From NCBI GenBank assembly GCA_900313005.1, contig ONZJ01000002.1, positions 1,752,996 to 1,816,995 on the forward strand: a DNA stretch of 64,000 nt, read 5' to 3'. This document shows positions 976 through 32,898 of this stretch, piece by piece. Within the stretch, counting starts at the first letter, position 1, and every line of letters starts with the position of its first letter. This stretch comes from Rhodobacteraceae bacterium EL129 (GTDB lineage Bacteria > Pseudomonadota > Alphaproteobacteria > Rhodobacterales > Rhodobacteraceae). A program made the position numbers and the translations under genes. The notes beneath the pieces are model-generated. The model saw nothing but the letters and a program-made list of their open reading frames with translations. It was not told the DNA's origin and did not search any database.

Positions 976-1173
976 ATGTCAGAGCGTAAAATCTGGGCGT
1001 ACAATTTCACGGGCTGGGTTCTGTTTACCGTCTCGGCGGTGTTTTTCCTCTGGGGCACGTGGAAAGCGGCAGATGTGATTGGAATCATCGCCAGTCTTGC
1101 GTTTCTTGTCGCCTGCATCGTTTTCATGATCCCTGCCTGGATGACACGACCTAAACCTGACGACGAGGCATAA
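976..1173 (+). CDS. Small inner-membrane protein, two predicted TM helices
   Basis: I do not recognise the family. From ATG 976 the product has 65 residues and two hydrophobic stretches, about residues 9-27 (GWVLFTVSAVFFLWGTW) and 32-50 (VIGIIASLAFLVACIVFMI). A charged tail rich in proline, lysine and aspartate follows. An ATG at 958 overlaps the stop of the previous gene (ATGA) and would add six residues, so translational coupling with the scaffold gene is possible. The start is therefore uncertain. The stop lies within a terminator that belongs to the opposite strand. Confidence 0.7.
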   Translation: MSERKIWAYNFTGWVLFTVSAVFFLWGTWKAADVIGIIASLAFLVACIVFMIPAWMTRPKPDDEA

Positions 1174-1208
1174 AAAAACCGCCGCGCATCCGGACAGGGA
1201 TGGCGGCG
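1172..1208 (-). terminator. Intrinsic terminator reading leftward
   Basis: Read on the minus strand, a GC-rich stem pairs CGCCGCCATCC with GGATGCGCGGCG (one bulged base) and is followed by a run of seven T (A run at 1172-1178 on the plus strand). It is oriented to end transcripts coming from the microprotein gene at 1380-1502. It overlaps the stop codon of the rightward gene. Confidence 0.75.
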
Positions 1209-1301
1209 ATCAGGTAAAGCTCGGTTCCGTAAAATCCCGTCATGCCGGAAGGGGGAAGTTGAGGCAAACCCCTGAAAAGGACAGTGGGACAGGCAGTGTC
1301 T

Positions 1302-1351
1302 TGTCGGGTCGCATTCGGGAAAAGGGACTGAGAATGCGGGATTACACGACA
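1302..1351 (-). other. Hairpin in the 3' untranslated stretch of the microprotein transcript
   Basis: Between the microprotein stop (1380) and its terminator (1172-1208) lie about 170 bases without a credible reading frame. They contain a bulged hairpin: CGCATTC (on the minus strand) pairs with GAATGCG, and outer TGTCG pairs with CGACA. This could be a long structured 3' UTR or a processed small RNA. No known RNA family was recognised. Confidence 0.3.
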
Positions 1352-1379
1352 GGATACAGAACGTCGCAGGCAGAAAGAG

Positions 1380-1502
1380 TTACAAAAATCCGGGCATATA
1401 CAGCCCAACAACCAGCGCGGCCATCAACGCCATTGCGCCCAGTGCGTCAGCAAGCAAGGTATCCTGAGAGCGGCGGGCGGCGTCTTTGATTTGGCGTATC
1501 AT
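1380..1502 (-). CDS. 40-residue single-pass membrane microprotein with SOS-type promoter
   Basis: An ATG at 1502 opens a 40-codon frame ending in TAA at 1380. The N-terminus is cationic (MIRQIKDAARRSQDT). One hydrophobic segment follows, about residues 19-38 (DALGAMALMAALVVGLYM), ending in PGFL. The predicted topology is N-in with one helix. GAGGA lies nine bases before the ATG. A LexA-like operator sits about 60-80 bases upstream and a T-tailed terminator downstream, so this looks like an independent transcription unit. By analogy, the SOS-induced cell-division inhibitor SidA of Caulobacter is also a tiny inner-membrane protein; homology is not shown and the function is inference. The gene is short enough to be missed by default gene callers. 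Confidence 0.75.
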   Translation of the reverse strand: MIRQIKDAARRSQDTLLADALGAMALMAALVVGLYMPGFL

Positions 1503-1559
1503 TGGTGTTGGTCCTCAATATGTCGTCTTCTTGTTGCCTCTTTGTTCTCATTTATGATG

Positions 1560-1585
1560 CGACATGTAAAGAACTTTTTAAGAAC
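1560..1585 (-). promoter_or_regulatory. LexA (SOS) operator, three phased half-sites
   Basis: On the plus strand the bases read CGAC-N7-GAAC-N7-GAAC, with half-sites at 1560, 1571 and 1582. The core GAAC-N7-GAAC at 1571-1585 is a perfect match to the known alphaproteobacterial LexA box. It lies 69 bases upstream of the microprotein start. The surrounding 50 bases align with the recA promoter at 32880-32925, including a common TTGTTCTCAT block. Confidence 0.8.
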
Positions 1586-1623
1586 ATTTGTGAACTTATT
1601 GCGACTTATTCAGTTAAGCCATT

Positions 1624-1649: not shown

Positions 1650-5911
<4,262 letters not shown>

Positions 5912-31729: not shown

Positions 31730-32821
31730 TCAGACTTCGAGGATGTCGCCATCTTCGCTGTCAGACACGTCAGGGTCTGCCTCGGGCATGTCGAAATCCA
31801 GACCGTGGGCTGCGCGCACTTTGTCTTCGATTTCAAGTGCGATCATTTTGTTTTCCTTCAGGAAAATCTTGGCGTTTTCGCGCCCCTGCCCGATGCGTTC
31901 ATCTCCGTAGCTGAACCAGCTGCCGGATTTTTCGACAACGCCAGCTTTAACGCCCAGGTCAATCAGCTCACCCATCTTCGAGATGCCTTCGCCGTAGATG
32001 ATATCAAACTCAACTTGCTTAAAGGGCGGAGCCACTTTGTTCTTGACCACTTTGACGCGGGTGGCGTTGCCGACCACTTCGTCGCGGTCCTTCACGGCAC
32101 CGATGCGGCGGATATCCAGGCGTACGGAGCTGTAGAATTTCAGCGCGTTACCCCCCGTTGTGGTTTCGGGGCTGCCGAACATCACACCGATTTTCATGCG
32201 GATTTGGTTGATGAAGACGACCGTGCATTTTGACCGGCTGATCGAGCCTGTCAACTTGCGCATGGCCTGGCTCATCAGGCGGGCCTGAACGCCAACGCTG
32301 CTGTCGCCCATATCGCCTTCCAGCTCGGACTTGGGCGTCAAGGCGGCGACCGAGTCGACCACGATCATGCTCACCGCGCCGGAGCGCACCAGCGTATCGA
32401 CAATCTCCAGCGATTGTTCGCCCGTGTCGGGTTGCGAAATCAGCAATTCATCCAGGTCCACGCCCAGCTTCTTGGCGTAAATCGGGTCAAGCGCATGTTC
32501 AGCATCGACAAAGGCGCAGACGCCGCCCTTTTTCTGTTCTTCCGCGATGCAATGCAGGGTGAGTGTGGTTTTGCCCGAGCTTTCGGGGCCGTAAATCTCA
32601 ACGATCCGCCCTTTTGGCAGACCGCCGATGCCCAGTGCGATATCCAGCCCAAGCGATCCGGTTGACGTGGATTCGATGTCCTGTGCGGGGTTGTCCGCGC
32701 CCAGTTTCATAATCGAGCCTTTGCCAAACTGACGCTCAATCTGCGCCAGCGCGCTGTCCAGCGCCTTTTGCTTGTCTGAATTTGCTTTGTTGTCCATCTT
32801 CAAAACTTCTGCCGTTGCCAT
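31730..32821 (-). CDS. recA: Recombinase RecA
   Basis: Strand-exchange protein and co-protease for LexA cleavage. It has 363 residues. Walker [10 protein letters not shown]; the core contains [19 protein letters not shown] and the L2 loop region [21 protein letters not shown]. The acidic C-terminus contains [17 protein letters not shown] 32821 follows AAGGA; an ORF extension upstream is not supported. A LexA-like operator lies 78-104 bases upstream and a terminator follows. Confidence 0.98.
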
Positions 32822-32898
32822 GTTGTCTATCCTTATTCCACATGCAGTTGCGTGCCACAATCATTGCTTTCGTTCACCTCTTGTTCTCATCTGTATGG

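Follow-up and report, generated by a model that had tools for sequence, protein, structure and literature searches.

A gene for a 40-residue membrane microprotein, placed behind an SOS-type operator and followed by a conserved RNA module, occurs in the genome of Rhodobacteraceae bacterium EL129, and its sequence makes it a strong candidate to be a new checkpoint factor in the response to DNA damage. According to our best explanation, to which we give a probability of roughly one half, it would be a LexA-repressed, monocistronic gene with two modules, of which the peptide most likely delays division and the 3′ RNA most likely base-pairs. The coding frame, the operator, the synteny, the family restriction and the RNA module are established by comparison with relatives. 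In the following, the window is the whole 64-kb stretch of DNA that was analysed (Table 1).

The interpretation in a preliminary description of this DNA, an SOS-controlled membrane microprotein and possible counterpart of SidA, is partly supported; that description had missed the further GTTC, the second near-consensus site, the 31-residue short form and the conserved 3′ RNA. If our explanation is true, one gene would let the SOS response reach both the envelope and mRNAs, and the coupled RNA, if active, would make this an SOS-controlled dual-function mRNA. A recG-linked candidate present in most of the family is directly testable. A non-exhaustive search of the available text of open-licence papers on SOS and LexA in this bacterial group found no SOS division inhibitor, and the microprotein gene is not described in the available text of the open-licence literature on LexA, SOS, recG, sRNAs and small proteins in the group.

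Table 1. Positions in the window of the microprotein gene, its control region, its RNA module and related genes.
Feature	Position	Strand	Basis
Conserved 3′ RNA module, repeated unpaired CUG[CU]C[CU] motifs	1172..1379	(-)	Covariance model, motif counts
Intrinsic terminator, sequence-conserved base and covarying upper stem	1172..1207	(-)	Alignment
Microprotein CDS, 40 residues, ATG to TAA	1380..1502	(-)	ORF and translation
Ribosome-binding site GAGGA	1512..1516	(-)	Read from sequence, 9 nt before ATG
Second near-consensus site GAAC-N7-CAAC	1533..1547	(-)	Footprint alignment
Conserved TTTACA, possible -35 element	1565..1570	(-)	Footprint alignment
Exact LexA-type operator GTTC-N7-GTTC	1571..1585	(-)	Exact in 143/144 loci
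Further GTTC, whose start is exactly 10 nt upstream of the operator	1592..1595	(-)	124/143 operator-bearing loci
recG, conserved upstream neighbour	1650..3764	(-)	Pfam
recA	31730..32821	(-)	Pfam RecA, E 7.6e-145
LexA-type operator of recA	32872..32886	(-)	Box search in window

Coding frame and predicted fold

Homologous loci were gathered by protein similarity and not by the box. The resulting 144 loci (L001-L030, L081-L154 and L176-L215) comprise 104 first collected and 40 further ones, mostly weaker matches from other genera; because species overlap between the locus sources, one of which is GTDB, the counts are not independent. The frame of EL129 encodes MIRQIKDAARRSQDTLLADALGAMALMAALVVGLYMPGFL. 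As the preliminary description had it, the 40-codon gene possesses a start and a ribosome-binding site, and an SD-like tetramer stands within 18 nt of the microprotein start in 137 of the 144 loci. The pN/pS ratio of the frame is 0.47, and pN is lower than pS in 3240 of 3240 pairs, which come from 81 unique coding sequences and are not independent; the synonymous bias that had been named as a check is thus present in relatives. One reverse-strand frame also yields a pN/pS of 0.60, but it is free of stops in only 33 of the 81 coding sequences. By this comparison, the microprotein frame is under purifying selection. A conserved upstream ATG (the MRTKxQ reading) was considered as an N-terminal extension or a leader peptide and was rejected: the pattern occurs in 108 of the 144 loci, is in frame with the microprotein in 43, and opens ORFs of 4 to 147 codons. 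Two loci, L027 and L099, were initially read from the upstream ATG, giving 56 residues. No significant match to the microprotein was found in Pfam, NCBIfam, PHROGs or PDB; the best PHROGs E value, 0.095, is below significance, and 51 members of the microprotein family gave three weak NCBIfam matches (best E 0.047).

The earlier claim of one hydrophobic helix agrees with the single hydrophobic stretch of the EL129 protein (Kyte-Doolittle score 2.18 over 19 residues) and with its AlphaFold2 model, in which one helix spans residues 2-39 (mean pLDDT 91.7). Among 137 homologous proteins, the best 19-residue hydropathy has a mean of 2.13 and a minimum of 1.57, and the C-terminal flank carries no net charge in 135. 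The microprotein would be a single-helix protein of the inner membrane with its N-terminus probably inside. The charge of the N-terminal flank is positive in 87 of the 137, zero in 32 and negative in 18, and this lack of a uniformly positive flank counts against our best explanation. An alignment of 52 diverse rows shows no variation at G22 and almost none at D19, L34, L36 and P37, and the core D-x2-G...L-x-L-P is kept even in the 31-residue forms.

Because the conserved positions fall within a single helix, a protein partner is suggested. The peptide might regulate another membrane protein of the damage response, such as a protease, a transporter or a sensor, and leave division untouched. Small membrane proteins often act by regulating other membrane proteins, and a single conserved helix with conserved polar positions fits such a role; against it, the product of the conserved neighbour recG is cytosolic. 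We consider this alternative unlikely and prefer a peptide that would delay division.

Operator and promoter region

The operator, GAACTTTTTAAGAAC, starts 83 nt ahead of the microprotein start codon, and the exact LexA-type box that the preliminary description placed upstream of the gene is indeed there. The window contains four exact boxes, against 2.1 expected, and the genome contains 96, against 128 for the reversed control pattern. Because the genome count lies below that of the control, the box is not significant by itself, and as sole evidence of regulation it was rejected. The evidence from relatives is of another order: the exact box is found upstream in 143 of the 144 homologous loci, where the density in the genome would give an estimated 0.35 or so. 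Frame and box are accordingly conserved together, as had been put forward for checking. The sole exception (L115) has an operator with one changed base, and 128 of the operator segments among the 143 are unique. In a further 17 loci outside the 144 (L155-L158 and L163-L175, partly from the same genomes), the box is found in 16; the one miss, L165, belongs to the genome of L007, where the box was found, and its microprotein start is apparently misplaced.

The second near-consensus site begins 38 nt away from the start of the operator in 135 of the 141 loci where this could be measured; its last four bases are CAAC instead of GAAC in 130 of the 141. This site, ATGAGAACAAAGAGGCAAC, is nearly the same as the recA operator, ATGAGAACAAGAGGTGAAC. 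A 20-base operator pattern, GTTCTNAWAAAGTTCTTNAC, was found exactly once in 14 of 16 genomes when up to two mismatches were permitted, and its control never; of five family genomes in a sample of the class, the pattern missed one, G114, which nevertheless carries the plain box (L157). Operator-like matches outside the family, in four of 380 genomes, each had one mismatch and none stood ahead of such an ORF, and these were rejected. A promoter scan of positions 950-1720 gave no sigma-70 match on the microprotein strand. In five Limimaricola loci (L106, L107, L108, L111 and L113), a further exact GTTC-N7-GTTC occurs 191-193 nt upstream of the microprotein start.

The identity of the box was considered from its other copies. 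Among 50 of the 96 genomic sites, 20 of them picked for A+T-rich spacers, a crude ORF test placed 11 between genes. Four of these 11 stand ahead of recA, lexA, mmcB and a gene that we take to be UvrA-like; the first three are confirmed by Pfam (RecA, LexA_DNA_bind and MmcB-like), and for the last the Pfam match is ABC_tran alone. Since copies of the box precede these genes, GTTC-N7-GTTC is very probably the SOS operator in the EL129 genome. It is also the LexA box consensus of Caulobacter (PMC12700426). Judged by conservation, the operator of the microprotein gene could be bound by LexA or by another GTTC-binding factor, and this, like the CAAC end of the second site, counts against our best explanation.

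Some observations concern other genes with such boxes. recA and its operator lie in the same window as the microprotein, 31 kb away, and the region upstream of recA holds a second near-box, GTTC-N7-GTCC. Elsewhere in the EL129 genome (L061), an intergenic box, GTTCCATTTTTGTTC, stands 248 nt ahead of a 184-codon lipoprotein-like ORF, which is possibly a further SOS gene. In D. shibae, predicted LexA sites concern lexA, recA, dprA, pde2 and flagellar, GTA and pilus genes (PMC6473078), and the word recG is absent from the main text of that study as available (PMC6473078).

Synteny with recG

The adjacency to recG, noted previously, holds well beyond EL129. On the same strand and 81-586 nt upstream of the microprotein start, recG is found in 143 of the 144 loci (103 of the 104 first loci and 40 of the 40 further ones); it is also on the same strand in 17 of the 17 loci outside this set and upstream in 11 of 12 diverged-ORF loci that were found through the operator. 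The gene-bearing loci without recG upstream are L084 and L224, where another gene is present. In at least five loci (L019, L026, L027, L094 and L099), recG and the microprotein may be separated by an ORF of 82-123 codons on the opposite strand. The next ORF (3737-5875, minus strand) is presumably ligA. On the other side, positions 952-1173 of the window encode a 73-residue small membrane protein whose 3′ end meets the microprotein terminator, and this neighbour is present in some relatives' loci.

The 3′ RNA module

The T-tailed terminator claimed for the gene is real, but it lies about 170 nt past the microprotein stop, outside the segment from 1380 to 1585 to which the preliminary description had assigned the gene. 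A simple terminator scan passed over it and reported a weaker one at 1408-1390, inside the end of the microprotein gene. In 140 of the 144 loci a G+C-rich stretch with a T-run occurs 100-235 nt after the stop, and 121 of the 144 pass a stricter hairpin test within 450 nt. The upper stem varies by compensating changes, with 8 of 12 pairs changed on both sides in 34 sequences, and the terminator was the only conserved structure found by consensus folding of the module.

The RNA between stop and terminator is marked by the motif CUG[CU]C[CU], which occurs 431 times in 124 unique sequences (mean 3.5 per sequence), against 64.8 (sd 7.4) in 20 dinucleotide shuffles. Its density per kb is 25.5 in the sense and 0.1 in the antisense orientation, 2.8 upstream and 1.3 downstream. 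Furthermore, its predicted probability of being unpaired is 0.73, compared with 0.43 for other hexamers that contain one G but lack A, and it is more unpaired than those hexamers in 115 of 123 sequences. An exposed motif depleted from the antisense strand is expected of a base-pairing seed, and a protein-binding site could show both properties too.

A covariance model of the module (R1) gave one strong match in the EL129 genome (E 3.4e-22; the next match has E 0.95). At E 0.001 it matches 109 of 149 family genomes and misses 40; the 34 training sequences derive in part from genomes among these 149. G114 and G269, which are not training rows, match at E 1.8e-22 and 6.6e-21. Among 240 genomes of the class, three family members match strongly, and matches in six genomes outside the family (E 7.8e-4 to 0.008), mostly to the terminator part, were rejected. 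The module lies directly behind the microprotein in 107 of the 109 positive genomes; of the two exceptions, one overlaps the microprotein one base beyond the cut-off and the other lacks a protein match. Genus g48 has a shorter module that ends in another terminator, and all 8 of its 8 loci retain CUGCCCCGCG just past the stop. Searches with Rfam 15 found no family in the window between 900 and 1700 at E up to 1, and in seven loci they gave five matches (Ysr141, sX13 and Prion_pknot), all below gathering. EcpR1 was rejected as a candidate for this RNA; it is encoded downstream of divK-pleD (PMC4414408).

Could the RNA be the main product, with the ORF of minor importance or serving to stabilise the RNA? 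The motif enrichment and the antisense depletion are in keeping with this. However, the protein is found in 136 of the 149 genomes (E 0.01), against 109 for the RNA model (E 0.001), it persists in genus g48, where the RNA changes, and the ORF is under purifying selection; we hold this alternative to be very improbable.

The main rival to a delay of division is a depolarising peptide of the TisB/DinQ kind, which would lower the proton motive force and slow growth while the RNA limits its synthesis. The size class, the single helix and the LexA operators are as in DinQ (27 residues; PMC3567139), and the conserved RNA of the same transcript could affect translation. Across 123 loci the complement of the leader is slightly greater to the 3′ part of the same locus (5.38 nt) than to 3′ parts from elsewhere (5.13 nt); none of 200 shuffles reached the first value, and the comparison is confounded by the relatedness of the sequences. 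Pairing of the leader with the 3′ part is weak and is not claimed. For an antisense RNA gene, one consensus scan of positions 950-1720 listed a promoter-like site on the opposite strand at 976-1005, near shuffle expectation. Several features argue against depolarisation. With a transcription start close to the second site, the leader would be some 40 nt long, which seems short. Moreover, the near-invariant D19, G22, L34, L36 and P37 suggest a specific partner and not a pore. The distribution of type I toxins is patchy, whereas the microprotein gene is widespread in the family. We regard depolarisation as somewhat unlikely and return to division delay below.

Distribution

With a single-sequence search, the microprotein was found in 33 of 35 other genomes of the same genus (E at most 2.9e-6), and matches in 24 genomes of other families appeared only at E 0.4 or worse. 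Of the two genomes without a match, G002 (76% complete) carries the operator where a contig ends; G018 (99% complete) yielded no microprotein and no 20-base operator, which reflects either gene loss or an assembly gap. From the named hits (46 loci), the genus of EL129 is probably Roseovarius, and Limimaricola, Thalassovita, Salibaculum, Loktanella and Histidinibacterium are among the other genera with homologues. With a profile of 24 rows, 323 of 394 family genomes were matched, and among the matches listed nearly every genome belongs to a different genus. A profile of 51 rows matched 183 of 196 genomes in a sample of the order, all of the same family among the matches listed. The broadest profile (52 rows) matched 136 of 149 family genomes at E 0.01, with 132 at E 0.001 or better and four above 0.001.

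In a sample of the class, all five family members match the profile strongly, and among 380 genomes of other alphaproteobacterial families there is no convincing match; weak matches in four of these (E 0.003-0.01), inside frames of 131-969 residues, were rejected. On the genomes sampled, the gene is specific to one large and mostly marine family, the Rhodobacteraceae, as named from the hits. Of the 13 genomes negative with the 51-row profile, 12 keep the operator ahead of a diverged ORF of 31-43 residues. All 12 ORFs share the microprotein core and seven have 31 residues; a search based on the operator also recovers microproteins whose shortness and divergence put them out of reach of a protein profile. 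In genus g48 (L219-L226), the microprotein lacks the N-terminal part and has 31 residues in 7 of 8 loci, and the operator is nearly unchanged.

Discussion

In the course of events that we propose, DNA damage would activate RecA, and LexA would be cleaved and leave the paired operator sites. The derepressed promoter would then yield a transcript of about 370 nt. Its 5′ part would be translated into an inner-membrane peptide of 31-44 residues with one helix, a conserved Asp and Gly towards the start and a Pro near the end. This peptide would bind a membrane partner in the septal wall machinery (FtsW, FtsI or FtsN) and delay division, as SidA does. The 3′ part would be a C/U-rich RNA that exposes several CUG[CU]C[CU] motifs and base-pairs with other mRNAs of the same response, whose predicted target sites follow the pattern [AG]G[AG]CAG. 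In this scheme, LexA binding, induction, topology, the divisome target and the action of the RNA in trans are the parts that we infer. That a gene of about 370 nt serves throughout the family as an SOS-driven dual-function mRNA, with a checkpoint peptide of 31-44 residues and a multi-seed RNA, is quite possible, and we propose it tentatively.

A delay of septation is the most likely function in view of the size of the peptide, its predicted topology, its control and the recurrent inhibition of the late divisome by damage-induced membrane proteins. In other bacteria, the late divisome is repeatedly inhibited by small membrane proteins following DNA damage (PMC13396833). The transmembrane part of YneA alone, however, localises but does not block division (PMC13396833), and against the divisome reading stands the fact that the microprotein has little besides its helix. 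The 40 family genomes missed by the R1 model, the altered 3′ part in genus g48, the two gene-bearing loci without recG upstream and the negative genome G018 also count against our explanation.

Among known systems, the closest in kind is SidA of Caulobacter, a 29-residue SOS-induced division inhibitor that acts on FtsW (PMC4211646). Both proteins are very small and alphaproteobacterial with a single membrane helix (predicted here), both lie behind the GTTC-N7-GTTC type of LexA box (PMC12700426), and the 31-residue short forms approach SidA's 29 residues (PMC4211646). The microprotein differs in its conserved 3′ RNA module, and its gene was not found in the sampled genomes of other families. 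YneA, SosA, ChiZ and DidA are likewise damage-linked small membrane proteins; however, YneA and ChiZ carry a LysM domain, SosA has an extended region, and DidA has 71 residues and SOS-independent control (PMC13396833, PMC4211646). TisB and DinQ share the single short helix, the LexA operators and the involvement of an RNA (PMC3567139). In contrast to these, the microprotein has near-invariant residues and is widespread in its family. The RNA module recalls the C-rich multi-loop sRNAs, such as sX13 and CcsR, which combine several exposed pyrimidine motifs with a terminator. The sX13 model gave a sub-threshold match at the 3′ module in one of seven loci (L131; 22.5 bits, gathering 50, E 1.6). 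Unlike in those sRNAs, the motif here is CUG[CU]C[CU], and it is embedded as the 3′ part of a microprotein mRNA.
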